Source: an uncultured Bacteroidales bacterium
Lineage (GTDB): Bacteria > Bacteroidota > Bacteroidia > Bacteroidales > Muribaculaceae
Length of the DNA stretch: 64,000 bases
Direction: 5' to 3'
NCBI GenBank assembly: GCA_902782465.1
Contig: CACZNH010000013.1
Span: forward strand, 62,001 to 126,000
In this document: positions 1,536 through 52,600 of the stretch, piece after piece
How the letters are laid out: every line of letters starts with the position of its first letter
How positions within the stretch are numbered: position 1 is the first letter of the stretch
Notes under the pieces: generated by a model
Told to the model about the DNA's origin: nothing
Databases searched by the model: none
What the model saw: only the letters and a program-made list of their open reading frames with translations
Position numbers and translations under genes: made by a program

Positions 1536-1586
1536 TTATAGACGCTATAGTTGCTATAGATGCTATAGATGAATTGCTATAGACGC
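1536..1586. repeat. Period-9 spacer repeat, CTATAG family
   Basis: Degenerate units of nine bases, each beginning CTATAG (CTATAGACG, CTATAGTTG, CTATAGATG), with one 14-base unit. CTATAG is a palindrome, so TAG occurs on both strands. It fills the gap between the ends of ung and rpmH. The same family is found at 7129-7148 and 51940-51985. Confidence 0.8.
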
Positions 1587-1672
1587 AACAAATGCCGCTA
1601 CGGTCCTGGTGGACCATAACGGCTTGATGCGTTGTAGTGCCGCTGTCTATCGCGGCAACCCTTCACAGGGGA

Positions 1673-1825
1673 TTACTTGTAAACGGTATCGCTGACAGTG
1701 AGGCTGTAGCGACCCTTAGCGCGACGACGGGCCAGCACCTTGCGGCCGTCGGCGGTGCGCATGCGATGACGGAAGCCATGCTTGTTGGCTTTCTTGCGGT
1801 TCGAGGGTTGGAATGTACGTTTCAT
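1673..1825 (-). CDS. rpmH: 50S ribosomal protein L34
   Basis: A short 50-residue protein read on the minus strand from ATG at 1825 to TAA at 1673. It begins [20 protein letters not shown] and continues with the Arg/Lys-rich L34 core ([18 protein letters not shown]), ending [11 protein letters not shown]34 is a structural protein of the large ribosomal subunit. Length and sequence are typical for Bacteroidales. Its promoter is the minus-strand TAATTTTGC at 1874-1882, divergent from efp. Confidence 0.97.
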
Positions 1826-1873
1826 TTCTATCTCTGTTTTTAGTTGTTCCGAAAAATTTTCGCAAAATGCGGT

Positions 1874-1964
1874 GCAAAATTAGTCCTTTTTTTGAAAATA
1901 CACAAATCCAAACGCATTTTTAGAGAAAAGTTTTTGTTTTTTTTCTCAAAAACACTACTTTTGC
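1874..1964. promoter_or_regulatory. Divergent promoters for rpmH (-) and efp (+)
   Basis: For rpmH, a minus-strand -7 box TAATTTTGC (1874-1882) lies about 20 bases from a TTTG at 1903-1906. For efp, a plus-strand TTTG near 1933-1936 is followed 19 bases later by TACTTTTGC at 1956-1964. Both match the Bacteroidota housekeeping promoter. Confidence 0.75.
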
Positions 1965-2025
1965 ACCCACAAAAGACTGAGAACAAACAATATTCACATA
2001 AAATAATAGCACAAACACTACAATT

Positions 2026-3732: not shown

Positions 3733-3852
3733 CTGCCGCCCTGAATGGCTGCCGCAGCAATGCGAAAAAGCTAGAAAAAACAAAAAAATGAGGCAGAATG
3801 GGGCGTGTTGGCAAAATTTTTGCTATCTTTACACGTTCAAAATAAAAAGCGC

Positions 3853-4413: not shown

Positions 4414-4465
4414 TTTTATCATCACCGATTAAACTTTTTTGACATCCACGAGTCAAATAGGCGTT

Positions 4466-4867: not shown

Positions 4868-4888
4868 TGTAGAAAGGAGATTTTAGAG

Positions 4889-5329: not shown

Positions 5330-5358
5330 TCACTAAGGTTTTTTTTGGACACAAAACG

Positions 5359-5400: not shown

Positions 5401-5559
5401 CAGTAGGCCAAAAACCAGAATCATCTGCAACGGTGCTGCGAATTATCATGATTTAGAGCATGTGTTCAAGTCACCCGCTCATGGCAGGAGCAGATAGGAA
5501 AAATTGCACGGGCCGGGGGTACGGTCCGTGCAATTGTATTGAAAGGGGATGGGATTCTC

Positions 5560-5587
5560 TAATCACTAATCACTAATCACTAATCAG
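5560..5587. repeat. Period-7 spacer repeat, TAATCAC family
   Basis: Four head-to-tail heptamers, TAATCAC three times and then TAATCAG. TAA recurs every seven bases and so falls in each reading frame in turn. It lies between the convergent ends of the sigma operon and dcuB. Confidence 0.85.
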
Positions 5588-5609
5588 CATAGGGCACAGC
5601 CCCCTTGCT

Positions 5610-7073: not shown

Positions 7074-7082
7074 AAGTATAAT

Positions 7083-7150
7083 AAGTTTTAAGTTTCAGTT
7101 CTAAGTTGGCATCCGCATTCTATTATTGAAGCTATAGCGGCTATAGAATC
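7083..7150. repeat. Composite spacer: period-7 AAGTTTT family, hinge, CTATAG family
   Basis: Heptamer-like units AAGTTTT, AAGTTTC, AGTTCT, AAGTTGG (7083-7109) run into GGCATCCGC (7108-7116). A segment with inverted ATTCTAT/ATAGAAT ends and CTATAGCGG units follows. It fills the gap between dcuB and the porin gene. Confidence 0.65.
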
Positions 7151-8760: not shown

Positions 8761-8767
8761 GGCTCTG

Positions 8768-9394
8768 TTACTTTTTATTTTGAAAATAAACGATGAGGCC
8801 GGGGATGATAAGGCCAATGACAGCCACGGCAGCCATCACATACAGTTGCTCGACCCAGGGGAAGTGCATGGCCAGGAAATAGCCGCCCACGCCGGAGATG
8901 ATGCCGCACACCAGAAAGACGCGGTTCTTGAGGATGAAGCCCGTCATCGTTGAGGCCATGCCAAAGCACAAGCAGATGATGCTCGTGATGTTGATGTACA
9001 CATGCTGGTCAGGAACAACCCACTCGACAGGAATCAAACCGCAAGCGGCGATGAAGATGATCCAACCCACCAGCGAAGCGATGATGCCAAACGTGGCCCA
9101 CACCTGACCGATGGTCTTGCCGACAAAGGTCGTGGGCACCGTCTCTTTTTTCTTGTCGATAAACCGGTTGCCGATATAGCCGACAACCCACATCACGAAC
9201 CACAGGGCATTCCATGCGGGACCGCCATGATTCTGCCACAGATAAGCAATCAAAAATGAGAACACTACGATGAGGACGCCCCACCAAATCTGCGGCAGCG
9301 CCCAGTTCTTGGATAATGCACGCTGGCTGCGCTCAATCGACTCGCGGATGATTTCCAGACTGCGCTCGGCAGTCATATTCTTATTCTCTTCCAT
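8768..9394 (-). CDS. Multi-span membrane protein paired with HTH regulator
   Basis: 208 residues. A soluble N-terminal helix (AERSLEIIRESIERSQRAL) precedes about six membrane spans (beginning WWGVLIVVFSFLIAYLW and ALWFVMWVVGYIG). It resembles uncharacterised Bacteroidetes membrane proteins co-transcribed with small winged-helix regulators. No catalytic motif is seen. It is first in the two-gene operon and is preceded by a good promoter (9505-9537). Confidence 0.65.
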   Translation of the reverse strand: MEENKNMTAERSLEIIRESIERSQRALSKNWALPQIWWGVLIVVFSFLIAYLWQNHGGPAWNALWFVMWVVGYIGNRFIDKKKETVPTTFVGKTIGQVWATFGIIASLVGWIIFIAACGLIPVEWVVPDQHVYINITSIICLCFGMASTMTGFILKNRVFLVCGIISGVGGYFLAMHFPWVEQLYVMAAVAVIGLIIPGLIVYFQNKK

Positions 9395-9703: not shown

Positions 9704-9734
9704 AGGTGAAATAATCCATAATCAATCATCAACT

Positions 9735-10844
9735 ATGATTCTCAAGAGTACAATCGCTGCTCTGCGTATCAAGTTACGCGACAGATTTATACGCTTCTAC
9801 ACCGACGACTTGGTCCAGATATCCCGAAGACGTCAAGCCAATAAGGTTTTCAAACGCAATTTACCCTATTTACAGCCTCTGCAGCCCGACCAAAAACAAG
9901 AGATATTGTCCTTTTGGGAGCCCTACCGCAAGGTGAATAAGGAATTGGATTATTTCGCCTTCTACAATGCCAACTGCAGCGACAAGTCGCAGTTGAAATA
10001 CTACATTCCTGATGTCATCTTCCACAGCGAGATTGACAGGTACTTCACCGACGCCCGCCGTTGCGACCTGCTAGATGACAAGAACCTGTACGACCTGTAC
10101 TTCTACGACGTGAACAGGCCCCGCACTGTCATCAGGAGAATCAATGGCGAATTCTTTGACGGCGACTACCAGCGCATCACCCTCGACCAAGCGTTGAAAC
10201 TGTGCATCGAAGCCCAACAGGTAGTGAGCAAGGAGGCGATGCTGTCGCTGGGCGGTCATGGCGTACATTTCTTTGACATGACGCAAGACTCGGTTGAGGA
10301 ATTAAAGAAATGTTTGACCCGCACCGACAACATCAATGTCCAGCAAGTCATCACCCAGCACGAGAGCCTGAGCAAAATCCACGATAAGAGCATCAATACC
10401 ATCAGAATCATGTCGCTGTTCCTTGACGGCAAGGTGACCATCCTCTCGTCAGTTCTCAGGATGGGACGCGACGGTTCCCGGGTTGACAACGCCTGCAGTG
10501 GCGGCATCGTGTGCGGCATCAACGATGACGGAACGCTCAAGGAGTTCGCCTTCAACACCCGCGGTGTGCATTGGGACCATCACCCTCAGGGGCTCAAGTT
10601 CAAGGGCTACAAGATAGCAGGATATGAACGTTGCTGTGAGATGGTTGAGAAACTGTCAGGCCGCCTGTACACTGCAAGCCAGCTGGTTTCCTGGGACTTT
10701 GCCGTGGGCGAAGATGGCGAGCCCATCCTCATCGAGGTCAACTTCACCTGGGGCGAGATTGATTTCCATCAACTGTGCAACGGTCCCATCTTGGGCGACT
10801 TGACCGAGGAAGTTTTGTCAAGAGTATATCATCAATCAAAATAA
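9735..10844 (+). CDS. Sugar-transfer-associated ATP-grasp protein
   Basis: 369 residues. The N-terminal basic helices are followed by an ATP-grasp fold with the motifs of the capsule-linked ATPgrasp_ST group: NTIRIMSLFLDGKVTILSSV, VDNACSGGIVCGI, and the metal-binding end WDFAVGEDGEPILIEVNFTW (Asp, Glu and Asn ligands). Members are found with surface polysaccharide genes and are thought to couple ATP hydrolysis to joining a carboxylate and an amine. Here the neighbours are an M16 peptidase and, further on, another ATP-grasp gene. The substrate is unknown. Confidence 0.8.
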   Translation: MILKSTIAALRIKLRDRFIRFYTDDLVQISRRRQANKVFKRNLPYLQPLQPDQKQEILSFWEPYRKVNKELDYFAFYNANCSDKSQLKYYIPDVIFHSEIDRYFTDARRCDLLDDKNLYDLYFYDVNRPRTVIRRINGEFFDGDYQRITLDQALKLCIEAQQVVSKEAMLSLGGHGVHFFDMTQDSVEELKKCLTRTDNINVQQVITQHESLSKIHDKSINTIRIMSLFLDGKVTILSSVLRMGRDGSRVDNACSGGIVCGINDDGTLKEFAFNTRGVHWDHHPQGLKFKGYKIAGYERCCEMVEKLSGRLYTASQLVSWDFAVGEDGEPILIEVNFTWGEIDFHQLCNGPILGDLTEEVLSRVYHQSK

Positions 10845-10869: not shown

Positions 10870-13776
10870 ATGAAATTTTCAAGATTAATGGTGTCATTGC
10901 TGGCAGGCCTGTTTTGCATGGGCATGGCGGCAACGACTCCCGCAGGGACGACAGTTCCCGGTGACCCTATGGGCACCCAATGCTACACGTTGAGCAACGG
11001 CCTCAAGGTGTTCCTAAGTGTTAACCACCAGAGCCCGCGCATCTCGGCCCACATCGCCGTGCGCACCGGCTCGCGTAATGACCCCGCCGAGACTACCGGC
11101 CTTGCCCACTATCTGGAACACTTGATGTTCAAGGGCACACAGAGTTTCGGCACAAGCAACTATGCCGCCGAGAAGCCCTTGCTCGACACCATCGAGGCAC
11201 GCTACGAGCAGTACCGTCTGGTGAAGGACCCCGAGCGCCGTCGCGTGCTTTACCACGAGATTGACAGCATCTCGCAGCTGGCTGCCAAGTACAACATCCC
11301 CAACGAGTATGACAAACTGATGGCTGGCATCGGCGGTATCGGCACCAACGCCTATACCAGCACCGACGTCACCTGCTATACCGAGGACATCCCCGCCAAC
11401 GAGGTGGACCGCTGGGCACGCATCCAGGCCGACCGCTTCCAGAACATGGTCATCCGTGGTTTCCACACCGAGCTGGAGGCCGTGTATGAGGAGTACAACA
11501 TCGGCATCGCCAACGACCAGTGGAAACTGTTCGAGGCCATGAACGCCAAGATGTTCCCCACCCACCCCTACGGCACGCAGACCACTATCGGCACGCAGGA
11601 GCACCTGAAGAATCCGTCGATTACCAACATCAAGAACTATTTCAACAACTACTACTGCCCCAACAACGTGGCCATCTGTATGGCTGGTGACTTTGACCCC
11701 GACGAGGTCATCACCATCCTGGAGCGCCACTTCGGCAGCTGGAAACCCAACAACAAGCTCACCCGTCCCGAGTTTGCTGCCCTCAAGCCCATCACGGCTC
11801 CTGTTGACACCACCGTTGTGGGTCAGGAGGCCGAATTCGTGGCCCTGGGATGGCGCTTCGGTGCCGGCAACAGCCTGCAGTGCGACACCATGGACGTCGT
11901 TGCCGAGATGCTATCGAACGGCACGGCAGGTCTCATGGACCTGAACCTGAACCAGACCCACGAGGTGATGATGAGCGGTGCCTACAGCGACGCCATGACC
12001 GATTACTCGATGCTCATGCTCATCGGCTACCCCAACGAGGGCCAGACCCTGGAAGAGGTGCGCGAGAAGCTGCTGGGCGAATTGGCCAAGCTGCGCGCCG
12101 GTGACTTTGACGACGACCTGCTCGTGAGCGTGGTGAACAACAACAAGCTCAGCTACCTCAAGTCGCTGGACAGCAACGGTTCCCGCACACGCCAGCTGGT
12201 CAACGCCTTTATCAACCACGTTGACTGGGCCCAGGAAGTGGGCAAGCTCGACCGCATGGCCGGCATGACCAAGCAGCAGGTTGTCGATTTTGCCAACCGT
12301 TACCTGAACAACAACTTCGTGTGCGTGTACAAGCGCATGGGCGAGGACACCACCGCCAAGAAGATTGACAAGCCCGCCATCACCCCCATCCCCACCAACC
12401 GCGACATGCAGAGCGACTTCGTGAAGAATATCCTCAGCGAAATCGTCGAGCCCATCCAGCCGCAGTTTGTGGACTACAGCAAGGAGATGACCGTCGATAA
12501 GACCAGCAAGAACCTGCCGCTGCTCTACAAGCAGAACACCCAGGACGACCTGTTCTCGTTGACCTATAAGTATGACTTCGGCAACACCGCTGACAACCGC
12601 TACGATATCGCACTGAGCTATCTGGACTACCTGGGCACCAAGAAGCTGACGCCCCAGCAGTTCAAGCAGCGCCTGTACAAGCTGGCCTGCAACATGTCGT
12701 TCAATGTGACCGACGACCGGACCTTTGTCACCCTGAGCGGTCTGAACGAGAACATGCCTGAGGCTATCAAGCTGCTCGAGGACCTGATGCAGAACGCCAA
12801 GGTTGACGAGACAGCCTACAAGAACATGGTTGACGTCATCCTCAAGTCCCGCAACGATGCCAAGCAGAGCCAGGACGAGTGCTTCGGCCGCCTGAATGAG
12901 TACGGCATGTACGGTCCCCGCAACTCCTACACCGACATAATGAGCGCCCAACAGCTGCGCGACACCAAGCCCGCCGACCTGCTCAAGCTCGTCAAGGGCA
13001 TGAAGGACATGCAGCACACCGTGGTTTACTACGGCCCGCTGAGCCAGCAGGAACTCGACAAGTGCCTGAAGAAGGCCCACAAGACCAGCAAGAACCTGGC
13101 CGCTGTGCCCGTCGGCGTTGACTACATGGAGCAGCTGACTCCGCAGACCGAGATTCTGATTGCCCCCTACGATGCCAAGAACATTTACATGGTTCAGTAT
13201 CACAACGAGGGCACCGCATGGACTCCCGAGCACGCAGCAGTCATCAACCTGTTCAACGAGTACTTTGGTGGTGGCATGAACGGTATCGTCTTCCAGGAGC
13301 TGCGCGAGGCCCGCGGTCTCGCCTACTCGGCTGCCGCCTACTACCGTCAGCCCAACGAGATGGGTCATCCCGAGTATGCCATGACCTACATCATCACCCA
13401 GAACGACAAGATGATGGACTGCGTCAACGAGTTCAACAACATCGTGGGCACCATTCCCCAGAGCGAGGCAGCCTTTGCCCTGGCCAAGGAGTCGCTGATG
13501 AAGAAGCTCGCCTCGCGCCGCGTCGTGCGCGGTGGCGTCCTGAACAGCTACATGCAGGCACAGCGCATGGGTCTGGACTACGACATCAACAGCAAGGTGT
13601 TTGAGATGCTGCCCAACCTCAAGCTCAGTGACATCGTGAACTTTGAGCAGCAGTCGATGGCTGGAAAGCCCTACCGCTACATCATCCTGGGCGACGAGAA
13701 AGAACTCGACATGAAGGCCCTGGAGAAGATCGGCCCCATCCACCGCCTCACCCTCGAAGAAATCTTCGGATACTAA
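10870..13776 (+). CDS. M16 family zinc metallopeptidase (pitrilysin-type), double domain
   Basis: 968 residues with a signal-peptide-like N-terminus. The first half carries the inverted zinc motif HYLEH (residues 80-84) with the downstream Glu in ELEAVYEEYN, so this half is catalytic. The second half repeats the fold without the motif (ILIAPYDAKNIYMVQYHN, then FQELREARGLAYSAAAYYR, the R/Y pair used for substrate contact). M16 enzymes cut medium-sized peptides inside a closed clam-shell chamber; location is probably periplasmic. It follows the ATP-grasp gene by 25 bases. Its TAA stop is the first base of the period-7 repeat that follows. Confidence 0.93.
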   Translation: MKFSRLMVSLLAGLFCMGMAATTPAGTTVPGDPMGTQCYTLSNGLKVFLSVNHQSPRISAHIAVRTGSRNDPAETTGLAHYLEHLMFKGTQSFGTSNYAAEKPLLDTIEARYEQYRLVKDPERRRVLYHEIDSISQLAAKYNIPNEYDKLMAGIGGIGTNAYTSTDVTCYTEDIPANEVDRWARIQADRFQNMVIRGFHTELEAVYEEYNIGIANDQWKLFEAMNAKMFPTHPYGTQTTIGTQEHLKNPSITNIKNYFNNYYCPNNVAICMAGDFDPDEVITILERHFGSWKPNNKLTRPEFAALKPITAPVDTTVVGQEAEFVALGWRFGAGNSLQCDTMDVVAEMLSNGTAGLMDLNLNQTHEVMMSGAYSDAMTDYSMLMLIGYPNEGQTLEEVREKLLGELAKLRAGDFDDDLLVSVVNNNKLSYLKSLDSNGSRTRQLVNAFINHVDWAQEVGKLDRMAGMTKQQVVDFANRYLNNNFVCVYKRMGEDTTAKKIDKPAITPIPTNRDMQSDFVKNILSEIVEPIQPQFVDYSKEMTVDKTSKNLPLLYKQNTQDDLFSLTYKYDFGNTADNRYDIALSYLDYLGTKKLTPQQFKQRLYKLACNMSFNVTDDRTFVTLSGLNENMPEAIKLLEDLMQNAKVDETAYKNMVDVILKSRNDAKQSQDECFGRLNEYGMYGPRNSYTDIMSAQQLRDTKPADLLKLVKGMKDMQHTVVYYGPLSQQELDKCLKKAHKTSKNLAAVPVGVDYMEQLTPQTEILIAPYDAKNIYMVQYHNEGTAWTPEHAAVINLFNEYFGGGMNGIVFQELREARGLAYSAAAYYRQPNEMGHPEYAMTYIITQNDKMMDCVNEFNNIVGTIPQSEAAFALAKESLMKKLASRRVVRGGVLNSYMQAQRMGLDYDINSKVFEMLPNLKLSDIVNFEQQSMAGKPYRYIILGDEKELDMKALEKIGPIHRLTLEEIFGY

Positions 13777-14041
13777 GGCGTTAGGCGATAGGCTTTAGGT
13801 TTTAGGCTTTAGTATTGACGCCCGAAGGGCGACCCTCTGAGTAACCCCCAGTAAAAGCGATGACCGAGCGATAGCGAGGGATTCGGTTTCACTGGGGGTT
13901 GTTCGATAACGTAAGCTGACGCCCGAAGGGCGACAGGGTGTGTGCATGTCATAGCCCCCAGTGAATCAGCCTCACTCGCTTGCGCTCGCTCGCCTGATTT
14001 ACTGGGGGTTACTCAGGAGGTCGCCCGTCGGGCGACTGCTA
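13774..14041. repeat. Period-7 repeat plus inverted pair of REP-like palindromes (REPIN-like)
   Basis: From the stop codon to about 13813 run heptamers of the TTAGGCG/TTAGGTT family. Two copies of one roughly 115-base element then follow in opposite orientation. Each has a GCCCGAAGGGC-type hairpin at its edge (13818-13834, 13919-13935, and GTCGCCCGTCGGGCGAC at 14020-14036). Each also has an inner pair CCCCCAGT/ACTGGGGG enclosing a GCGAGCG-rich loop (13847-13900 and 13954-14009). CTGAGTAAC appears in both, in opposite directions. Such paired palindromes fit a REPIN. Confidence 0.75.
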
Positions 14042-15025: not shown

Positions 15026-15091
15026 TTCTAGAAGTTCTAGATAATCTAGATAATCTAGAGGAATCACCCCTAACTTCTCACTCCTAACTAA
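15026..15091. repeat. Two-family spacer: period-9 TCTAGATAA and period-7 GTTAGGA
   Basis: On the plus strand, nonamers TCTAGAAGT, TCTAGATAA, TCTAGATAA, TCTAGAGG (15027-15061) are followed by a short hinge. A stretch whose complement is the AGTTAG/GAGTGAG/AAGTTAG heptamer family (15069-15093) comes next. It spans from the stop codon of the ATP-grasp gene almost to the start of the next gene. Confidence 0.75.
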
Positions 15092-19062: not shown

Positions 19063-19150
19063 CAGTTTTTCAGCTCTCAGTTTTCAGTTTTCAGCGGCAT
19101 CCGCGTTCAACTGAAGACTGAAAACTGACAACTGAAGACTGAAGACTGAG
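19063..19150. repeat. Inverted period-7 repeat with GGCATCCGC hinge
   Basis: Heptamers of CAGTTTT type (19063-19094) run into the mini-hairpin GCGG-CAT-CCGC (19094-19104). Heptamers of the complementary ACTGAAA/ACTGAAG type (19107-19150) follow. The two arms can form one long imperfect hairpin inside the operon, between the SPFH and ribbon-helix-helix genes. TGA recurs every seven bases on the right arm. Confidence 0.85.
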
Positions 19151-22777: not shown

Positions 22778-23614
22778 ATGAAAAGGCGGTTGGAGCGGTT
22801 TTGGCAGCGATGGGGCGATGCCGTCAGGTTCACGCTTTGGGGCCTGGCGGTGGGTTTGGTATGCTTTTTGCTGTACAAGGTTGCAGTGAGAAGTTCAACC
22901 ACGCATATGGAGCCACTGAGTGCTGGAGAGCGCGACAGCCTGATGACGGTTGCTGTGCCCCGTGGCATGAGCGACACACTGGTGAAGTATGACGCCTTTG
23001 AGGTGCATTTCAACAGCCAGCAGGGCATCGCCAACTGCGCTGCCTACGAGTTCGTTATCAACGAACTCAACGGAACAGCCGAGCGTGACGGTTCCTTCTT
23101 GCCCGATACAGGGGTCAAGGGCTGTCCGATGCCTGCCGACTATGCGGGCAGTGGCTTTGACCGCGGGCACCTGGTTCCTGCTGGCGACCTCAAGTGGAAC
23201 ACCGACGCGATGCGCCAATCGTTCCTGCTGACCAACGTGTGTCCGATGCACAAGGCACTCAACGGGGGAGGCTGGGCGAAGCTCGAGGAGAAAGTGCGCG
23301 AGTGGACAAAGCGCGACAGTGCGCTGCTCGTATTCTCGGGGCCGGTCGTCAGCGAGGGCGACACCACACTGACCGGCGGACGGGTGAAGGTGCCAAGCGC
23401 CTACTTTAAGGTCATCATGGCACCGTGCGTGAGGCCCAGGCGGGCCATCGCATTCATCTACCCCAACGGCCACAGCGGAGGACGGCTACGGCAGTATGCC
23501 GTGAGCGTCAACGAGGTGGAACGCCGCACAGGGCTGGACTTCTTCCCCACCCTGTCCCAAGATGAACAGCAACGGCTGGAGACGCCCGTCAACCTGGACG
23601 CGTGGACGAATTAG
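22778..23614 (+). CDS. DNA/RNA non-specific endonuclease (NUC family), membrane-anchored
   Basis: 278 residues. One N-terminal membrane anchor (about residues 19-36) is followed by the NUC (beta-beta-alpha metal) domain. The catalytic motif FDRGHLVPAGD places His131 as general base, preceded by KGCPMPADYAGSG. LTNVCPMHKALNGGGW carries the metal-binding Asn helix, and VFSGPVV lies beyond it. These enzymes cut single- and double-stranded nucleic acids with Mg. With the anchor the domain probably faces the periplasm. A second NUC gene lies directly downstream. Confidence 0.88.
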   Translation: MKRRLERFWQRWGDAVRFTLWGLAVGLVCFLLYKVAVRSSTTHMEPLSAGERDSLMTVAVPRGMSDTLVKYDAFEVHFNSQQGIANCAAYEFVINELNGTAERDGSFLPDTGVKGCPMPADYAGSGFDRGHLVPAGDLKWNTDAMRQSFLLTNVCPMHKALNGGGWAKLEEKVREWTKRDSALLVFSGPVVSEGDTTLTGGRVKVPSAYFKVIMAPCVRPRRAIAFIYPNGHSGGRLRQYAVSVNEVERRTGLDFFPTLSQDEQQRLETPVNLDAWTN

Positions 23615-23652
23615 ATAATAGATATTTGATATTAGATAACAGATATTAGATG
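23612..23652. repeat. Period-7 spacer repeat, AGATATT family, stop to start
   Basis: AGATAAT, AGATATT, TGATATT, AGATAAC, AGATATT, AGATGAG in strict register of seven. It begins with the TAG stop of the first nuclease and ends with the ATG of the second lying inside the last unit. Confidence 0.85.
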
Positions 23653-24594: not shown

Positions 24595-24692
24595 GGCATC
24601 CACTTTTCAACAACTGAGAAGTCTGAGGTTTCTGAGGGGCATCCGCACTCAGAAATCTCAGACTTCTTCAGACGATTCAGTTGTTAAATGAT
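24595..24692. repeat. Inverted repeat with GGCATCCGC loop; convergent terminator
   Basis: Left arm CTGAGAAGTCTGAGG... (24613-24637) and right arm ACTCAGAAATCTCAGACTTC (24647-24666, extending to about 24682) pair almost fully. GGCATCCGC (24638-24646) forms the loop. A related GGCATCCAC lies at 24595-24603. It sits between the converging second nuclease and the C10 peptidase and probably terminates both. Confidence 0.8.
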
Positions 24693-33332: not shown

Positions 33333-34994
33333 TTAGTGGGTCAGGATATAGTTGATGATGGCGTTGATATCGCTGATGTTGACCACGCCGTCGCCGTTCA
33401 CGTCACCCTTGTCACTGTGATGGCCTGACAGGATGATGTCAATGACCTGGTTCACGTCGCCAATATTCACGGCGTTGTCACCATTCACGTCACAATTCGG
33501 TCCCATTTCCACAATCCATCTGAAATAAGGATACCATGAGAAAGAAGAACGGTATTGTTCGGCTGTTCCTGCCGGTACATGCAGCGTGCGTTTCAAATAG
33601 TTATCATTGAAGTCCTCGAAGATTCTTTGGCCAAGATTCACTTTGGCCAAGTCTGTAATGTAGGAATAAACGTCTTTCAGCTCACTACAAAATGCAAATG
33701 CGGTGTAACCGATGCGGGTTACAGAATTGGGGATAGTGATGCTTGTCAAGCCACGGCAGTTATAGAATGCGCGTGTATCTATATTGGTCACTGAATTGGG
33801 GATAGCGATGCTCGTCAGACCGCTACAATTCTCAAACGCACTATTATTGATTGAGGTGACCGAGTTAGGGATGATGATGTCCGTCAAATCACGGCAGTTA
33901 GAAAACGCATAATCACCAATGGTGGTCACAGTATTGGGGATAATTGTATTCCTGCAACCAACTATCAGCATATCGCTCGGCGTCACGATGATGGCATTGC
34001 AATTGTCTCGCGAATCATAGCTTGGGTTACCGTTTTCGACCTCTATGCTCGTTAGTCCGCTACAAGCACGGAACGCATATTCTCCAATGGAGGTGACAGA
34101 GTAAGGAATGGTCAAGCTCGTCAAGCCGCTACAGTTGTCGAACGCATAATCACCAATGGCGACTACAGTGTTGGGGATGGTCACACTCTGCAATCCGCTG
34201 CAGCCATTAAACGCATATTCACCAATGGTGACTATGGTGTTGGGGATAATTGAATTTTGGCAGCCAACTATCAGTTTATTGCTCGCCGCCTCGATGATGG
34301 CATTGCAGTTGTCTCGGGAATCGTAGCATGGATTGCCACTGTCTACCAGTATGCCCATCAGAGATTTACAGTTCCTAAACGCCATATATCCGATGGAAAT
34401 GACAGAGCTAGGAATGGTCAAGCTTGTAAGAGCAGTACAGCCATCGAACGCGAAAGGCCCAATGGCGGTGACAGAGTTAGGGATAATTAAGCCCGTCAGG
34501 CCGCTACACCGCTGAAATGCGCCATTGCCAATGGCGGTGACCGTGTTGGGAATAATTGTGTTTTGGCAGCCAGCAATCAGCGTATTGCTCGCCGTCTCGA
34601 TGATGGCATTGCAATTGTCCCGCGAATCATAGCTTGGGTTACCGTTTTCAACCAATATGCTCGTCAGACCGACACAGCCGTATAACGCATCATCACCGAT
34701 TGAGGTGACAGAGCTGGCGATGGTCAAGCCCGTCATGCCGCTACACTGCCAAAAAGCATAATCGCCAATCGAGGTGACCGCAAAGGTCACACCATCTTCA
34801 GTGACGGTCTTGGGTATCGTGACTTCACCTGTGTACCTATTGTTGTCAGTGTAGTAATAATCTCCTTTATAAGTGACTTCGGCTTCGTTGTCGCCTGTGA
34901 TGTTGTAGTAGATGCCGTCGACCTCGAAGTCGTGGGCACCTGCAGTGGCGGCGGCAAGCAGGAGCAGTAGGCAAAAAATAGGTTTTAGTTTCAT
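33333..34994 (-). CDS. BspA-like LRR protein with dockerin-like tail
   Basis: 553 residues from ATG 34994, which begins the signal peptide MKLKPIFCLLLLLAAATAGA. The N-terminal FEVDGIYYNITGDNEAEVTY strand block is common before LRR_5 domains. About 17 LRR units follow (IPNSVT.IG..AF..C.GL). Three of them belong to 102-residue super-repeats that include NPSYDSRDNCNAIIETASN, repeated at the DNA level every 306 bases. The end carries CDVNGDNAVNIGDVNQVIDI and GDVNGDGVVNISDINAIINY. Surface or secreted; BspA relatives bind matrix proteins, but the ligand here is unknown. Confidence 0.88.
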   Translation of the reverse strand: MKLKPIFCLLLLLAAATAGAHDFEVDGIYYNITGDNEAEVTYKGDYYYTDNNRYTGEVTIPKTVTEDGVTFAVTSIGDYAFWQCSGMTGLTIASSVTSIGDDALYGCVGLTSILVENGNPSYDSRDNCNAIIETASNTLIAGCQNTIIPNTVTAIGNGAFQRCSGLTGLIIPNSVTAIGPFAFDGCTALTSLTIPSSVISIGYMAFRNCKSLMGILVDSGNPCYDSRDNCNAIIEAASNKLIVGCQNSIIPNTIVTIGEYAFNGCSGLQSVTIPNTVVAIGDYAFDNCSGLTSLTIPYSVTSIGEYAFRACSGLTSIEVENGNPSYDSRDNCNAIIVTPSDMLIVGCRNTIIPNTVTTIGDYAFSNCRDLTDIIIPNSVTSINNSAFENCSGLTSIAIPNSVTNIDTRAFYNCRGLTSITIPNSVTRIGYTAFAFCSELKDVYSYITDLAKVNLGQRIFEDFNDNYLKRTLHVPAGTAEQYRSSFSWYPYFRWIVEMGPNCDVNGDNAVNIGDVNQVIDIILSGHHSDKGDVNGDGVVNISDINAIINYILTH

Positions 34995-35207: not shown

Positions 35208-35900
35208 TCAGTCGGCGCAGAGGTCGCGGGGGAACTGGTCGATTTGGGTCATGCGTTTCTTGATGGTGTTGTGGGCCTTTTTCATCCAGGCGGTGGGATG
35301 GGCGCTGTCGCGTTCACGAGGGTTGGGCAGCGACACGGCAATGTAGGCGCACTGGTCCTTGGTCAGGCGGTCGGGCGTGGTGTTGAAGTTGATGCGGGCC
35401 ACAGCCTCGGCGCCATAAATGTTGCGGCCCATCTCGATGGAGTTGAGATAGACTTCCATGATGCGCTCCTTGCCCCAGATTTTCTCGATAAGGAAGGTGA
35501 AATAGGCCTCCAGCCCCTTGCGCAGCCACGAGCGTTGCTGCCACAGGAAGACGTTGCGGGCCGTCTGCTGGCTGATGGTGCTGGCACCACGCTGGCGCTT
35601 GCCCTGCTGTGCCTCGATTTGTGCCTTCTGGATTTGTTCCAGGTCAAAGCCGCTGTGCTTGAGGAACAGGTTGTCCTCACTGGCCATCACCGCCTGCGGC
35701 AGGTTGTGGTCGATTTTCTCCAGCGGCACCCAGTGGTGGTTGATGGCGGGTTCCTTGCCATCGATGACCGCCTCGACACAACGGATGAGCATCAGCGGCG
35801 TGATATAGACAGGGATATACTTCAGTATCACCACGGCGAGTATCGTCGAGGTGAAAAAGAATATCAATATGTTGCGCAACCAGCGTGTTATATTCTTCAT
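35208..35900 (-). CDS. mtgA: Monofunctional biosynthetic peptidoglycan transglycosylase
   Basis: 230 residues. One N-terminal membrane anchor (residues 10-32) is followed by a single GT51 domain with MASEDNLFLKHSGFD (catalytic Glu), RGASTISQQTARNVFLW, KIWGKERIMEVYLNSIEMG (second Glu) and GAEAVARINF. It polymerises lipid II into glycan strands at the outer face of the inner membrane, without a transpeptidase domain. The length is typical of MtgA. It lies downstream of a Fur-family gene, the 45-base gap being filled by spacer repeats. Confidence 0.95.
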   Translation of the reverse strand: MKNITRWLRNILIFFFTSTILAVVILKYIPVYITPLMLIRCVEAVIDGKEPAINHHWVPLEKIDHNLPQAVMASEDNLFLKHSGFDLEQIQKAQIEAQQGKRQRGASTISQQTARNVFLWQQRSWLRKGLEAYFTFLIEKIWGKERIMEVYLNSIEMGRNIYGAEAVARINFNTTPDRLTKDQCAYIAVSLPNPRERDSAHPTAWMKKAHNTIKKRMTQIDQFPRDLCAD

Positions 35901-35948
35901 TCAGTTGTCAGTTTTCAGCAGCAGCCATCCATTATCTAATATCTATTA
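35901..35948. repeat. Two-family spacer between the Fur-family gene and mtgA
   Basis: Read on the minus strand: the Fur TAA stop lies inside AGATAATAGATATTAGATAA (the same family as 23612-23652). A hinge GGATGGCTGC comes next, then CTGAAAACTGACAACTGA (the family of 19106 and 52502) up to the mtgA ATG. Confidence 0.85.
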
Positions 35949-36386
35949 TCTCTTGACAGCGCACTCGGGGCAGAGGCCCTTGAGGACATAGTTGATGCTG
36001 TGCACCTGGAAATTGCCGGGTAGGGCGACCAGCGGCACCTGCGTTGTCTGCAGGCAGAAGGTACGGCCGCAGCGCTCACAGTTGAAGTGGGCGTGCATGT
36101 GGTCGATGGTGCCGTCATCCTCGCCACAATGGCAGTCGGGGCTGCACACGGCATACTTGAACATGCCCGAGCCGTCGTCGATGGCATGGATGAGGTGATG
36201 GGTCAGGAACAGGGTGATGGTGCGGTAGATGGTCGATTTATCCACCGTGTCCAGCTCATCTTCAAGGCTCTGGAGCGAGAAGGCATCGTCGTGCGCCATC
36301 ATCGTGCGCAACAACAGGATGCGCATCGCCGTGGGCTTCACGTCGTGCTGCTCCAGTCGGGTGATATATTTACTCTCGTCCTTCAT
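35946..36386 (-). CDS. Fur family metal-responsive repressor
   Basis: 146 residues. A winged-helix DNA-binding domain (TAMRILLLRTMMAHDDAFSL, then VDKSTIYRTITLFLTHHLIH) is followed by a dimerisation domain with DHMHAHFNCERCGRTFC (His cluster and CxxC) and a second CPEC near the end, the structural zinc site. Whether it senses iron, zinc or peroxide cannot be told. It could regulate the SusCD operon or the mtgA gene on either side; no operator was identified. Confidence 0.85.
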   Translation of the reverse strand: MKDESKYITRLEQHDVKPTAMRILLLRTMMAHDDAFSLQSLEDELDTVDKSTIYRTITLFLTHHLIHAIDDGSGMFKYAVCSPDCHCGEDDGTIDHMHAHFNCERCGRTFCLQTTQVPLVALPGNFQVHSINYVLKGLCPECAVKR

Positions 36387-47336: not shown

Positions 47337-49157
47337 ATGAGTGACAAGTATATCGTATCGGCGAGGAAGTATAGGCCCTCAACGTTTCGCAGCGTGGTGG
47401 GTCAGCCGTCGTTGACGCACACGTTGAAGACTGCCATCGCCAGCGGCCGTCTGGCTCATGCCTACCTGTTTTGCGGACCGCGCGGTGTGGGTAAGACGAC
47501 CTGCGCCCGCATCTTTGCCAAGACCATCAACTGTGAGCACCCCACGCCCGAGGGCGAGGCCTGCAACGAGTGCCCGTCATGCCGGGCGTTCAACGAGCAG
47601 CGCTCCTACAACATCAACGAGCTGGATGCCGCGTCCAACAACAGCGTGGACAACATCCGCGACCTGACGGAGCAGGTGCGCATCCCGCCGCAGACGGGCC
47701 GTTACCGCGTGTTCATCATCGATGAGGTGCACATGCTGTCGCAGGCCGCCTTCAACGCCTTCCTCAAGACGCTGGAGGAGCCGCCCGAATATGCCATCTT
47801 CATCCTTGCCACTACCGAGAAGCAAAAGGTCATCCCCACCATCCTGTCGCGCTGCCAGATTTATGACTTCGCACGCATCACCGTGCCCGACATCGTGCAG
47901 CAGCTGCAGTACGTGTGCGAGCAGGAGAACATTGAGGCCGAGCCCGCCGCTCTCAACGTCATCGCCCAAAAGGCCGACGGCGCCATGCGCGACGCCCTGT
48001 CCATCTTTGACCAGGTGGCCGCCTCGACCGAGGGGCACATCACCTACCAGAGCGCCCTCGACAACCTGAATGTCCTGGACTATGACTACTACTTCCGCCT
48101 AGTGGAAACGTTCCTCACGGGGAATGTCAACGAGGCGCTGCTCATCTATAAGGAAATCCGCGACAAGGGCTTTGACTCGCAGTTCTTTATCAACGGACTG
48201 GCGCAGCACCTGCGCGACCTGATGGTAGCCAGCACGCCCCAGACGCGCAAACTGCTGGAGATGAACGACGAGGTGGCTCAGCGCTACGGCGAGCAGAGCG
48301 CCAAGCTGGCTCCCGGCTTCTATTACCGTGCACTGGACCTGTGTAACAGCTGTGACCTGAATTACCGCAATGCCAGCAGCAAACAACTGCTGGTAGAGCT
48401 GACGCTAATCAAACTGTGCCAGCTGGTAGCACCCGTTGCCCAACAGCCCGCGGCACAGCCCCCGATGCAGAGAATCGCAGCGCAGCCGGTCCCACAACAG
48501 CGTCCAACGACGCCACCCACCCCAATATCTCCCGCAGCTAAGGCTGCTCCCCAACCAGTTCGGCAGGCATCACAGCCAGCCCAACAGGCACCTCAACCAC
48601 AACAGCCGCCAACGCCTCCGCATCCCGCGCAGGCGGCACCCGCCATGCCCCCACGGCCCGCTGCAACACCGATGACCGGTGCCAAGCCGATGCCGCGTGC
48701 AGCTGCCAGCGAAGCGCGCATCATGGTGAATGTACCCAACGCCACCGCCGCACAACAGCCGACGGCGGCCAGCAATGCACAGCAGCGCACACAGCCGTTC
48801 AGTGCCGAACAGCTGTTGGAAGCCTGGCAAAATTACATTGAACAGCATCCCCAGGAGCGGGCATTGGCAACGACCATGACCTACGCCACGCCAAAGCCCG
48901 GCGACCATGCCGAACATTACATCATGACGGTGGGCAGCCCCGCCGAGCAAAAGAACGTCGAGGAGCACAAGATTTCGCTGATGAAGTTCCTGTGCGACGC
49001 AGTCCATAACGACCGACTTGCGCTCGACATCAAGGTGAGTGACGTGCCCATCGACACGCCCAAGATTCTGTCGCCCCGAGAAGTCGTGGAGCAAATCAAG
49101 CAACACAACCCCAATTTCACCCAATTCCTGAAAGATTTCGACCTGGGACTCGCGTAG
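47337..49157 (+). CDS. dnaX: DNA polymerase III subunit gamma/tau
   Basis: 606 residues from ATG 47337 (MSDKYIVSARKYRPSTFRSV, the conserved start). The AAA+ clamp-loader domain has Walker A GPRGVGKT, a four-Cys zinc module (CEHPTPEGEACNECPSC), Walker B IIDEVHML and sensor ATTEKQKVIPTILSRCQ. Domain III follows. A Pro/Gln/Ala-rich linker (about residues 370-490) leads to a C-terminal domain that would contact the polymerase core. It loads the sliding clamp at the replication fork. The TAG stop lies directly before a period-7 repeat. Confidence 0.96.
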   Translation: MSDKYIVSARKYRPSTFRSVVGQPSLTHTLKTAIASGRLAHAYLFCGPRGVGKTTCARIFAKTINCEHPTPEGEACNECPSCRAFNEQRSYNINELDAASNNSVDNIRDLTEQVRIPPQTGRYRVFIIDEVHMLSQAAFNAFLKTLEEPPEYAIFILATTEKQKVIPTILSRCQIYDFARITVPDIVQQLQYVCEQENIEAEPAALNVIAQKADGAMRDALSIFDQVAASTEGHITYQSALDNLNVLDYDYYFRLVETFLTGNVNEALLIYKEIRDKGFDSQFFINGLAQHLRDLMVASTPQTRKLLEMNDEVAQRYGEQSAKLAPGFYYRALDLCNSCDLNYRNASSKQLLVELTLIKLCQLVAPVAQQPAAQPPMQRIAAQPVPQQRPTTPPTPISPAAKAAPQPVRQASQPAQQAPQPQQPPTPPHPAQAAPAMPPRPAATPMTGAKPMPRAAASEARIMVNVPNATAAQQPTAASNAQQRTQPFSAEQLLEAWQNYIEQHPQERALATTMTYATPKPGDHAEHYIMTVGSPAEQKNVEEHKISLMKFLCDAVHNDRLALDIKVSDVPIDTPKILSPREVVEQIKQHNPNFTQFLKDFDLGLA

Positions 49158-49222
49158 TTTTGAGTTAGAAGTTAGGAGTTAGGAGTGAGTAAGTCAGGAG
49201 TTAGGAGTTAGGAGTTAGGCTG
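49158..49222. repeat. Period-7 spacer repeat, GAGTTAG family
   Basis: GAGTTAG, AAGTTAG, GAGTTAG, GAGTGAG, one eight-base unit, then three more GAGTTAG, starting at the dnaX stop. The complement of this family recurs at 15069-15093. It abuts the left flank of the transposase element. Confidence 0.85.
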
Positions 49223-49230
49223 GTGGCGTG

Positions 49231-49920
49231 AGAATAAAAGTCCGAAGGACTGTAAAGATTACAGGCAGGCGGTGGAGCGAGCCAACGGCTCGCGCAACCC
49301 CTGCAAACGATGAGAACAGAATGAGCCCCGAAGGGGCGACAGAGTTATGGCAAGCACTCTAGTAAAAATAAATGTACACTTAGTGTTCCATGTCAAGAGC
49401 ACGGGCATCAATTTGAGAGAAGAAGACCTTGAACGGATTTTCGCATATATTGGAGGTATCATCCGCAATATGGGTGGTGCTCCCATTCAAATCGGAGGAA
49501 TGCCTGACCATATCCATATCCTATCATCATTGCCAAAACGCTATCGATAGCAGAATTTGTGAGAACGATCAAAGCTGATAGCAGTAAATGGATAAAGACG
49601 CTAGACAACTCCTACCAATCATTTGCTTGGCAAGAAGGTTATGGCGCTTTTTCAGTGAGTCCATCACAAATGAAAAACACAATAAACTATATTGTGCGAC
49701 AACCTGAGCACCATAAAAAACGGACATTTATTGAGGAATACAAACTGTTCCTTGAGGCATACGGCATCGATTACGATGAGCGGTTTGCGTTTAAAGATTG
49801 ATTCTTTTTCTGTCACCCCTTCGGGGTTTAGTTTTGGGGAATGACCTTAGCAGGGGTTCCGCGAGCCGTTGGCTCGCTTCACCACCTGCCTATAATCTTG
49901 CAGCCCTTCGGGCTTATTCC
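49231..49920 (+). mobile_element. RAYT-like element: IS200-type transposase between long inverted REP-like flanks
   Basis: The left flank (about 49231-49345) and right flank (about 49806-49920) are imperfect inverted repeats of some 110 bases. Both contain in order a CCGAAGG hairpin, GATTAnAGGCAGG, the palindrome GCGAGCCAACGGCTCGC, AACCCCTGC and CCCCGAAGGGG. Inside is one tyrosine transposase gene. Outside both flanks lie period-7 repeats. This fits a REP-associated tyrosine transposase (RAYT) and its REP palindromes. Confidence 0.75.
49347..49801 (+). pseudogene. IS200/IS605-like (Y1, RAYT-type) transposase, frameshifted
   Basis: Two adjoining frames together give about 151 residues. The first (49347-49550) has STLVKINVHLVFHVKSTG and the HUH motif GGMPDHIHILSSLPK. 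The second continues FVRTIKADSSKWIKTLDN, WQEGYGAFSVSPSQ (catalytic Tyr) and YIVRQPEHHKKRTFIEEY. Restoring one base near 49543, in the run CCAAAACGC, rejoins them as LPKTLSIAEFVRTIK. Otherwise every key residue is intact, so inactivation is recent, or the shift is a sequencing error or a programmed event. Confidence 0.85.
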
Positions 49921-49923
49921 AAC

Positions 49924-49982
49924 CTAGCACCTAATGCCTAAAACCTAATGCCTTAAGCCTAAAACCTAATGCCTTAAATCTA
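49924..49982. repeat. Period-7 spacer repeat, CCTAATG/CCTAAAA family
   Basis: CCTAATG, CCTAAAA, CCTAATG, CCTTAAG, CCTAAAA, CCTAATG, CCTTAAA in strict register, ending at the CTA that is the complement of the CotH stop codon. The complement (TTAGG units) matches the family at 13776-13813. Confidence 0.85.
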
Positions 49983-51917
49983 GGGGAGGGAGTTGATGGA
50001 GGCGGCCTTGGCGGTGAAGAAGTTGTCGTTGTTGTTCTTCAACAGGTTGTACTCGCTGTGGTTACCCCAAGAGGCGGGTTTGTCCTCGATAAAGGTGTCC
50101 TCGCCCGTGTCGTTGTCGATGTAGTCGGCTATCTTGTTCTGCCAGGCGCGGATGCGTGCCTGTGCCGTCGCACGGTCCATCATGGCATTACCCGTGGCAA
50201 CAAGGAACTTGAGATGGTTGACGTAGATAGCCTTGAAATCGTTGAACTTGAGGATGCGGGCGATGAGGCGGTTGTTGTCCACACCCCACTGCAGAGGATT
50301 CTGGCGTCCCGCATCATCCTGATTGCCACAGCGCAGGCTGGTGCCCAAGGTGTTGTCGTAGTCATAAGGGATGAAGTAGAACTTATAGCCCGTCAACCCG
50401 GTGTTGTTGAAGTAGAGATAGTAGTTGTTGGCATTGTTCCAATAGTCGTCCCACATGCCTACGGCGACGTTGACGGCATAGGTTTTAAGCAACAAATCGA
50501 CATCGGTCACCTGCTGAATCCAAGTGTAAAACTCATTATCGCTGAGGTTGGTGAGTTTGTTCATGAAATCGGTAAGCTGGAGACGTGCGCTGTCAAAGAC
50601 CTCGGTATTGGTCTCGAGGGTGTAGGCATGACGGTCGTCGGTGTCGTCATCATACCAGATGTCGCCATTGGGGTTGTTGAGGCCAGCAGCGGCGTTGCGG
50701 CACTTCCACAGGTTGCCCTTGTCGCTGCCGAAGAGCGCCTTACGGTCCTTGAGATAACGTTTGTCGATGGGTTCAAGCAACTCATACACACCATAATAGG
50801 CCTCGTTGCGGTCGCCCTCGACGTGGAGCCACAGGCGGCAGTAGTTGTCACGCACGGCGGTCCACACGCCGGCACGGCGGAAGAGCTCGTAGCAGAACAT
50901 CTCGCGCACATACATCGGGTCGTCCTTGAACCACTTGAGGTGCAGTTTGCGCACACCCTGGATGGTGTGGGCATTGTCCTCGACATATTTGCGCAGGTTG
51001 ATGCCGAAATGGGCGTGATGCCAGTCGGTGTTGTCGCGCTGGTGCATCTGGCCGTTCCAGCCCTCGGGGCGACGACGCGAAGTGTTGCCCTTGAGGCGCA
51101 GTCCCACGCTGTCGATGAATGTGGTCTCGCCCTCCTTGACAAAGGACAAACTGGCCATGACATACTTGGTGGTATAGGCATTGGCGTCATACAGGCCCAG
51201 GAGCCTGTTCCACTCGTTGAGGCTCACGTCGATGTGCAGCTCGGGCAGGGCGTCATCGTCCCAGACGTAGTCATAGCCTTCCTTGACACGTTCAGGCAAG
51301 CGGCCTTCTAAAATGTAATCAATGAGTACCGTAATGTCGGCGATATTCACCGAGTTGTCATAGTTGACATCGGCACGGTGCATCATGTCATAGTTGGCAA
51401 ATCCGCCCAAAATGATGTCAATCATCTGGGTAATGTCGCTGATGTTGATGCTGCCATCGCCATTCACGTCACCCACCTGGAGCGAATAGGGGTCAGGAAC
51501 CGGAGGTTCTGGCTCCTCATACTCGGCAACGCTGAAGGTGAGCTGCGACAGGTTGAAAGTGAACGTGTAGTCCTTTCCGTTGCCCGTGAACTTGTAGGAA
51601 TGGTTATTATTGCTCTTCTGGGTCGTATATTCACGGCCCAAAGTCACGTCCTGGCTGCCGTTGCCCGTGGGGCCATAACGGTAACTGGAATTGAAGACGT
51701 TCCAATCGCTGTCCTGGCCGTCGGCAAAGACAAACCACACCGTGCCGTTGATGTTGGCGGTCAACGAATAGATACCACCACCCTGGTCCATCATCTCGAC
51801 ACCGCCAGCAGGGTTCCAGTCACCAAAGGGGATGTTGCCGACAATATAGATGGCGGCCTGTGCCGGCAAAACCGCCAGCACAAGCGCCATGATAGTCAAA
51901 TAATAATACTTCTTCAT
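49980..51917 (-). CDS. CotH kinase family protein with internal dockerin-like pair
   Basis: 645 residues. Signal peptide to about residue 21. An N-terminal beta-sandwich (IYIVGNIPFGDWNPAGGVEM ... YKFTGNGKDYTFTFNLSQLT) resembles the SusE/SusF-type starch-binding modules. Dockerin-like repeats come next (GDVNGDGSINISDITQMIDI, ADVNYDNSVNIADITVLIDY; about residues 148-206). The CotH domain follows with RLKGNTSRRRPEGW, YCRLWLHVEGDRNEAYYGVY and FYFIPYDYDNTLG. CotH proteins are atypical secreted protein kinases; the target is unknown. It is last in an operon with pepP and the carbonic anhydrase gene. Confidence 0.87.
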   Translation of the reverse strand: MKKYYYLTIMALVLAVLPAQAAIYIVGNIPFGDWNPAGGVEMMDQGGGIYSLTANINGTVWFVFADGQDSDWNVFNSSYRYGPTGNGSQDVTLGREYTTQKSNNNHSYKFTGNGKDYTFTFNLSQLTFSVAEYEEPEPPVPDPYSLQVGDVNGDGSINISDITQMIDIILGGFANYDMMHRADVNYDNSVNIADITVLIDYILEGRLPERVKEGYDYVWDDDALPELHIDVSLNEWNRLLGLYDANAYTTKYVMASLSFVKEGETTFIDSVGLRLKGNTSRRRPEGWNGQMHQRDNTDWHHAHFGINLRKYVEDNAHTIQGVRKLHLKWFKDDPMYVREMFCYELFRRAGVWTAVRDNYCRLWLHVEGDRNEAYYGVYELLEPIDKRYLKDRKALFGSDKGNLWKCRNAAAGLNNPNGDIWYDDDTDDRHAYTLETNTEVFDSARLQLTDFMNKLTNLSDNEFYTWIQQVTDVDLLLKTYAVNVAVGMWDDYWNNANNYYLYFNNTGLTGYKFYFIPYDYDNTLGTSLRCGNQDDAGRQNPLQWGVDNNRLIARILKFNDFKAIYVNHLKFLVATGNAMMDRATAQARIRAWQNKIADYIDNDTGEDTFIEDKPASWGNHSEYNLLKNNNDNFFTAKAASINSLP

Positions 51918-51985
51918 CTTGAATTTTGGTTGAGTTTTTTATAGAAACTATAGTATTTTTTTAGTTGCTCTAGATGCTATAGGTT
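51918..51985. repeat. Period-9-like spacer, CTATAG family
   Basis: Between the gamma carbonic anhydrase stop and the CotH start, ATAGAAACTATAGTATTTTTTTAG and related CTATAG/CTAGATG units occur. It is less regular than the copy at 1536-1586. Confidence 0.6.
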
Positions 51986-52501
51986 TTAATCTTCGTACCA
52001 GGTGGAGTACATCAAGTAGTTCTTGGCGATTTTCACGTTGATTTCGCTGGCCTGCTTGGGGTCAACCATCTTTTTGAACTTCGCCGGGCTGCCTGCCCAC
52101 AGTTCGTGGGCGCCAACCTTGGTGCCACTCAGCACTACGCTGCCGGCAGCGATGATAGCACCCTCACCGATTTCGGCGTGGTCGAGGATGATGCTGCCCA
52201 TGCCGATGAGCGCCATGTCACCGATTTTGGCGCCATGGACAACCACGTTGTGGCCAATAGAAACATCATTGCCGATTTCGGTAACGGATTTCTCATATAG
52301 GGTGTGTATCACACTGTTGTCCTGGATATTCACGCGGTTGCCGATGGTGATGGTGTTCACGTCGCCACGCAGCACGGCATTGAACCAGATGCTGCAGTCT
52401 CTGCCCATGGTCACGTCGCCCACAACGACGGCGTTGTCGGCCAGGAAACAGTTCTCTCCAATCTTGGGCTCAAAGCCCCTAACTTTCTTTATAATAGCCA
52501 T
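51986..52501 (-). CDS. Gamma carbonic anhydrase family protein (YrdA/PaaY-like)
   Basis: 171 residues of left-handed beta-helix hexapeptides: NCFLADNAVVVGDVTMGRDC, SIWFNAVLRGDVNTITIGNR, VNIQDNSVIHTLY, SIGHNVVVHGAKIGDMALIG. The three zinc-binding His are in the DNSVIH, IGHNVVVHG region. Proteins of this group bind metal as trimers; many lack measurable carbonic anhydrase activity. It lies between pepP and the CotH gene, with repeat-filled spacers on both sides. Confidence 0.9.
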   Translation of the reverse strand: MAIIKKVRGFEPKIGENCFLADNAVVVGDVTMGRDCSIWFNAVLRGDVNTITIGNRVNIQDNSVIHTLYEKSVTEIGNDVSIGHNVVVHGAKIGDMALIGMGSIILDHAEIGEGAIIAAGSVVLSGTKVGAHELWAGSPAKFKKMVDPKQASEINVKIAKNYLMYSTWYED

Positions 52502-52600
52502 TTTCAGTTTTCAGTTTTCAGTCGTCAGTTTTCAGTTTTCAGTTGTAAGTTTTCAGTTGGTGGATCCCCCTAAAGCCTAAAGCCTAATGCCTAAAACCTA
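52502..52600. repeat. Two-family period-7 spacer between pepP and the carbonic anhydrase gene
   Basis: CAGTTTT-family heptamers (CAGTTTT, CAGTCGT, CAGTTGT, AAGTTTT) run from the carbonic anhydrase ATG to about 52558. A hinge GGTGGATCCCCC follows, then CCTAAAG, CCTAAAG, CCTAATG, CCTAAAA to the pepP stop (CTA at 52598-52600). The whole stop-to-start gap is repeat. Confidence 0.88.

Follow-up and report, generated by a model that had tools for sequence, protein, structure and literature searches.

Why are so many intergenic spacers of one Bacteroidales genome filled with degenerate tandem repeats of seven bases? The question is raised by a stretch of 64,000 nt (positions 62,001-126,000 of contig CACZNH010000013.1, assembly GCA_902782465.1, 3.13 Mb in 45 contigs) from an uncultured gut bacterium of the order Bacteroidales (Muribaculaceae), the whole of which is called the window below. 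An earlier reading of its letters (the sequence-only reading) had noted spacers built of units of period 7 or 9, each with a stop trinucleotide. The period-7 spacer arrays are confirmed and are a strong pattern; the interpretation first given to them was partly supported. Arrays were also found as inverted pairs around a short core, an arrangement absent from the sequence-only reading, and these two-armed arrays are probably, if not securely, small dispersed hairpin elements of about 60-130 bp, located in short intergenic gaps and with arms prone to 7-bp slippage.

The genome was sampled through the window and 40 further stretches (848,160 bases, 621 predicted genes, 501 gaps of 10-1000 bases), with 693 kb of predicted coding DNA and 88 kb of gap DNA. 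Gene boundaries were taken from a simple codon-score caller written for this analysis, and not from a curated annotation; one genome per species was used in the comparisons. The top named match of one window protein was 'uncultured Prevotellaceae bacterium' (92% identity), with uncultured Bacteroidales and a Muribaculaceae genome ranking next.

The arrays were first examined at the 14 places named in the sequence-only reading, by comparing the period-7 or period-9 self-match with 1000 dinucleotide shuffles of the respective 70-base segment. Twelve of the 14 were strong, being unmatched by any shuffle, and two were weak, the score being reached by 15 of the 1000 shuffles at 15069 and by 10 at 33275. 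A scan of the 848 kb then detected 119 period-7 segments in the 501 gaps, far above the 0.7 per shuffle obtained from 10 dinucleotide shuffles of the gaps, and 4 in predicted coding DNA. Period 14, being the double of 7, gave 90 gap segments, and the other periods were less frequent (24 for period 9, 10 for 8, 5 for 11, 4 for 12, 3 for 10, 2 for 6 and 1 for 5; periods 4-6 and 10-13 gave 1-5 each). The claim that the repeats are confined to spacers therefore nearly holds for period 7 and fails for period 9, of which 37 segments are in predicted coding DNA and 24 in gaps. The strict register attributed to the units was borne out within arrays. A restriction of mismatches to certain unit positions was considered and discarded: the pooled distribution is uneven (610 versus 441 expected, maximum 540), but taken singly no more than 10 of 60 arrays are conspicuous. 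The commonest units were AAAACTG, AAAGCCT, AAAACTT and AACTCCT. With the threshold lowered slightly, 131 arrays were found in 97 of the 501 gaps; 31 of the 97 contain two or more, typically as the arms of a predicted intercistronic hairpin. By gap type, array-bearing gaps at this threshold are 28/143 and 49/212 (tandem), 15/81 (convergent) and 5/65 (divergent), divergent gaps being array-poor relative to tandem gaps (5/65 versus 77/355, p=0.007). A greater likeness of neighbouring arrays was weak (74 of 2000 permutations).

In gene orientation, many gaps run from a stop codon through units of TTAGGNN or AGTTNTC to a short core, and from there through units of CCTAANN or ACTGAAA to a start codon. 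In co-directional gaps, (i) stop-proximal arrays are T/G-rich, e.g. (AGTTNTC)n and (TTAGGNN)n, with G>C in 45 of 61 and C>G in 13, and (ii) start-proximal arrays are A/C-rich, e.g. (ACTGAAA)n and (CCTAAAG)n, with C>G in 31 of 45 and G>C in 7. One such element of the window consists of three parts:

19067..19094, plus strand: left arm of TCAGTTT-type heptamers, 3' of the stop codon ending at 19056
19096..19104, plus strand: core GGCATCCGC of the element
19110..19149, plus strand: right arm of ACTGAAA/ACTGAAG heptamers, ahead of the next gene

The 32 bases on each side of this core are predicted to pair at -31 kcal/mol. The commonest core, GGCATCCGC (core A), occurs 20 times in the 88 kb of gaps, versus 0.35 expected, and 23 times in the 693 kb of genes. 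A second core, GGCGATAGTAATCGT, is directly followed by ACT-units in 13 of 15 intergenic near-matches and in 0 of 15 in genes. For 25 intergenic copies of GGCATCCGC, pairing between a copy's own arms averaged -16.6, versus -10.4 for swapped arms (none of 300 swaps was as low); at 200 random gap positions taken as a control, the own-partner effect was smaller (-9.6 versus -8.2, also 0 of 300 swaps). Two-array tandem gaps of 30-200 bases have predicted folds far below those of their shuffles (mean z -3.6, n=23), compared with -1.1 for array-free gaps (n=150). As a separate observation, one convergent gap of the window (24595-24646) contains two GGCATCC-type cores, the second of which has strongly pairing, non-heptameric flanks.

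The same assembly of core and arm is dispersed through the genome. The junction GTCAGCGGCATCCGC is present in 21 copies and the junction TTAGGTGGCATCCGC in 15; they were found in 9 and 5 of 41 genomes of the genus, respectively, this one included, and reversed-junction controls gave 0 matches in this genome and one match in one other. All 21 copies of the GTCAGCGGCATCCGC version were inspected: all share the core, most also share linker and arms, and 20 of 21 have an ACTGAAA-type right arm. Pairwise identity drops to background about 38 bases to the left and 45 bases to the right of the core. In 18 of the 21 copies, an ATG with an open frame is located to the right of the core at a distance of 34-58 bases (3 of these 18 also have one on the other side, where the remaining 3 copies have their only one), versus 29% for random points in tandem gaps, measured downstream. 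Two copies flank lpxC/fabZ in an operon that we take, from its protein sequences, to be lpxD-lpxC-lpxA.

Further arrays of the window include the following, the last two of period 9:

52501..52558, minus strand: ACTGAAA arm, flush with the start codon of gene 51986-52501, which is presumably gamma-carbonic-anhydrase-like, judging by its sequence (score 31, 0 of 1000 shuffles)
52569..52600, minus strand: TTAGGCT arm, taking in the stop codon of gene 52598-54379
49162..49219, plus strand: AGTTAGG heptamers, 3' of the stop codon of gene 47337-49157
49921..49977, minus strand: TTAGGNN heptamers, 3' of the stop codon of gene 49980-51917
23610..23651, plus strand: AGATATT heptamers, with the stop TAG of the upstream gene in register with the array
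13776..13812, plus strand: TTAGGCT heptamers, beginning at the stop codon of gene 10888-13776
35901..35918, minus strand: ACTGAAA-type units ahead of the start codon of gene 35208-35900 (score 11, 0 of 1000 shuffles)
35927..35954, minus strand: AGATAAT heptamers, overlapping the end of gene 35946-36386
5556..5586, plus strand: TAATCAC heptamers, about 4 copies, in a convergent gap
7082..7107, plus strand: degenerate TAAGTTT units, adjoining a copy of core A (GGCATCCGC) at 7108-7116
9711..9732, plus strand: ATAATCA heptamers, immediately ahead of the start codon at 9735
1537..1571, plus strand: array of CTATAGNNN, a palindromic 6-mer plus 3 bases
15036..15059, plus strand: array of TCTAGANNN

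Period-9-like units of CTATAGNNN (palindromic 6-mer plus 3 free bases) were also seen at 51918-51985 of the window, and in the orthologous gap of three other genomes (G006, G020, G023).

The closest pair of species found was G445 and G446, with a mean flank identity of 0.945. Of 148 gaps, 87 could be matched between them; 14 of the matched gaps carry an array in at least one species and 12 of these 14 in both. Insertions or deletions (indels) in multiples of 7 account for 7 of 24 in array gaps versus 5 of 144 elsewhere (Fisher p=0.0003), and sizes of 7, 14 and 49 bp were seen; the remaining 17 of the 24 are not multiples of 7. One gap appears to have its array swapped for another family, and at another (G445:C2 146853-146914) G446 is longer by 244 bases, made of about four copies of a heptamer arm plus a hairpin-like block. 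The lpxC-lpxA gap was also observed to be 42 bases (six units) longer in one species of this pair (L318 of G446 versus L317 of G445).

Over the genus, six orthologous gaps carry an array in 9/19, 11/12, 11/21, 7/20, 7/20 and 13/20 loci (respectively 1, 10, 2, 1, 1 and 10 loci were left out, and a few loci share a genome). The array-free orthologous gaps measure 2-162 bases, many of them less than 50, and the arm family and core found in one orthologous gap may vary from species to species. Synteny with stretches from 12 relatives, too short for a broad comparison, matched 10 gaps of this genome: three arrays are present in gap 49158-49979 here versus an array in 0 of 10 relatives, and the array gap at 8836-8902 of locus L017 is array-free in the one relative compared. 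Of 80 named loci around one gene, those with 1 kb or more of gap DNA numbered 56, and a period-7 array was present in 21 of these (this excludes a run of N in L146, first scored as an array), with unit types that include AATTATG and TTGAAAA. No period-7 array was present in the loci read from Paenibacillus (2), Paraburkholderia (1) and Desulfarculaceae (1). Density varies among species: the 5-6 kb of gap DNA examined in each of the genomes G018 and G003 contained no array. Three exact ACTGAAA units in tandem occur at 121 places in this genome and were found in 12 of 394 other sampled genomes of the phylum, for this one exact unit; ACTRAAR triples are present in 40 of 61 genomes of the genus, this one included.

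The reading that we favour is as follows. An element has a short core (GGCATCCGC, or in other cases GGCGATAGTAATCGT) that is flanked on each side by an arm of degenerate heptamers in tandem; copies would spread by copying or transposition, and the arms would afterwards grow and shrink by 7-bp slippage. Copies would persist mainly between stop and start codons because the native spacers are tiny and genes cannot take the elements, and the RNA may fold as an intercistronic stem-loop. The stop trinucleotides belong to the arm motif itself (TTAG/CTAA, CTGA), an array that overlaps a gene end supplying its stop codon, and one-armed arrays are putative remnants or products of growth in situ. A bolder proposal, put forward only tentatively, is that of a new class of very small mobile intercistronic elements in Bacteroidales, with a conserved core of about 10 bp and interchangeable heptamer arms rewritten in 7-bp steps, repeatedly occupying the same operon gaps across species, and the commonest version oriented with transcription.

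Several observations weigh against dispersed two-armed elements. A single array is present in 66 of the 97 array gaps, and one-array gaps fold no better than array-free gaps (z -1.4, n=35). With arms swapped among 27 two-array tandem gaps, 9 of 200 shuffles pair as well, and within the 21-copy version pairing is no better for own arms than for swapped ones (187 of 200 swaps as low). A mirror-image unit order between arms gave no clear signal (16 of 200 as good after shuffling the units of one arm). About half of the 25 intergenic GGCATCCGC copies are without heptamers or have poorly matching flanks, one of the 21 GTCAGCGGCATCCGC copies (L298) is without a right arm, and core A in tandem gaps is 9 times sense and 4 times antisense. 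When unit order shared between gaps was compared with 40 unit-shuffled controls, an excess was seen only at 34 bases (11 pairs versus a mean of 5.0 and a maximum of 8) and not at 22, 26, 30 or 40 bases; dispersal argued from shared unit order alone thus has weak support and was set aside. No insertion was caught in the act and no enzyme was found; target-site duplications were neither found nor searched for.

Growth in situ without any movement is the strongest alternative, although it is unlikely as the sole explanation. A 7-bp slippage bias of replication would amplify sequence beside stop and start codons, and hairpin-templated copying would keep the two arms alike. Indels of 7, 14 and 49 bp between G445 and G446 are what it predicts, and two near-identical loci (L189 and L190) differ by one unit; moreover, in 23 of 61 stop-adjacent arrays the units keep register with the stop of the gene itself (52 stop phases in all, p=2e-7). 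It also agrees with Mrazek's proposal of a 7-nt polymerase footprint, as outlined in PMC4679880. However, it fails to explain why one core, mostly together with one kind of linker and arms, recurs at 21 places, and why cores differ within one orthologous gap. The statement that the arrays are unlike ordinary slippage products was right for the shared core and the dispersed copies, and wrong for the whole 7-bp steps between close species, which are a slippage product.

A selected RNA device seems still less probable. In this model, the stem-loop would couple or insulate the translation of neighbouring genes, or protect the mRNA, and the A/C-rich arm could be an unstructured leader for the ribosome. 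The strong predicted folding of two-array gaps would fit, as would arms flush with stop and start codons and a predicted unpaired probability near the start of 0.60 behind arrays (n=26) versus 0.48 elsewhere (n=182, p=1e-5). The same gaps are nonetheless short and array-free in many relatives, with flanking proteins often more than 90% identical.

The sequence-only reading had linked period 7 to a sweep of stops through all three frames, and an array selected to end stray translation in this way is very improbable. A sense-strand stop trinucleotide is indeed carried by 88% of 471 complete units in tandem gaps (hence not by each unit, as had been claimed), versus 57% (maximum 68%) for the same columns in random order, and TAG is commoner as the stop of genes flush with an array (15/45 versus 83/576, p=0.002). 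However, stops on the other strand are enriched as well (71% versus the same 57%), many orthologous gaps are without an array, and periods 5, 8, 10 and 11, which would also carry stops into all frames, are rare, so that the frame argument leaves the number 7 unexplained. The in-register gene stops are taken as arrays that overlap gene ends and supply the stop codon, as TAACTGA repeats can also do according to PMC4679880; this does not show selection for insulation.

Movement as REPIN-type elements by a RAYT (Y1_Tnp) transposase is equally hard to credit: Y1_Tnp matches are present in 55 of 61 genus genomes and a broken RAYT-like gene (PF01797) is located at 49362-49702 of the window between two heptamer arrays, but no period-7 array lies within 320 bp of any of the 20 Y1_Tnp genes fetched (2 of this genome and 18 of other genomes), which counts against the favoured reading too, and the link was rejected. 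These 20 leave out one further copy on contig 1 of this genome and the broken copy of the window; one of the 20 has a short period-9 stretch. Palindromes were observed beside the broken gene, in a gap of 822 bases whose matched gap measures 12-192 bases in 10 relatives.

Other features were also present in the window. A known RNA family was considered as the identity of the arrays and dropped: Rfam at gathering thresholds reported none over them, its only hits in the window being a cobalamin riboswitch (RF00174, 46908-47128, minus strand) and a tRNA gene (648-719, minus strand). A gene-internal tandem repeat of 306 bp with a sub-period of 69 bp is located at 33903-34745, and an 82-bp unit is repeated in tandem (97% matches) at 54530-54708, ahead of a gene called at 54777.

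With regard to known systems, Elhai reportedly described in 2008 the small dispersed repeats (SDR) of Nostoc, tiny hairpin cores that are associated with tandem heptamers and thought to be mobile. A short hairpin core in many copies is likewise found here (20 copies of core A in gaps), with heptamers not beside all of them; SDRs reportedly lie within arrays, whereas here two flanking arms are inverted to each other.

The parallel drawn in the sequence-only reading with cyanobacterial heptamer repeats (STRR) was a good one, and two systems are closer still, as far as PMC4692102 and PMC4679880 describe them. The GGGAATC / GGGGA(C/T)T heptamers of Xanthomonas and Nostoc (PMC4692102) are also degenerate, mostly intergenic, close to the end of the upstream gene and rare in divergent gaps; in Xanthomonas they often form inverted pairs, and two related species mostly share the gaps, with variation in length and sequence. 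Their unit is nevertheless G-rich and quadruplex-forming, and no GGGANTN tandem pair was found in the 501 gaps; here many A/T-richer units coexist in one genome, a short conserved core lies between the arms, and a given orthologous gap may differ in arm family and core between species. The TAACTGA repeats of marine Beggiatoaceae, some Cyanobacteria and five Bacteroidetes (PMC4679880) are likewise heptamers with an AACT core and stops in all frames, mostly just ahead of start codons in one genome and sometimes overlapping a gene end, and 7-nt indels separate two Cyanothece strains. A single unit is described there, with one indirect repeat in the Maribeggiatoa genome, in contrast to the several unit families, inverted arms and cores found here, where exact TAACTGA gave 0 tandem pairs in 848 kb and 0 occurrences inside arrays. 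REPINs (PMC3116915) are dispersed and extragenic and consist of two inverted repeats forming a hairpin, traits also found, by predicted folding, in the two-array gaps and the 21-copy version; the arms are here tandem heptamers instead of 16-mer REPs and are not linked to the Y1_Tnp genes examined, the flanks of the 20 fetched genes being without period-7 arrays while the broken gene of the window, a 21st, does sit between arrays.

No description of core-centred heptamer elements in Bacteroidales was found in a literature search whose coverage leaves out most subscription journals. Heptamer repeats are on record from a few scattered phyla, and no account of their origin is accepted. Here they are dense, belong to many unit families, often form hairpin arms round a shared core and show 7-bp steps between close species. 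Slippage, mobility and RNA function thus become separable by experiment, within an order that has cultured gut bacteria among its members. In summary, intergenic heptamer repeats are a known kind of sequence and the two-armed, core-centred variant looks new; should the elements be mobile, they would be very small ones with an influence on operon spacing.

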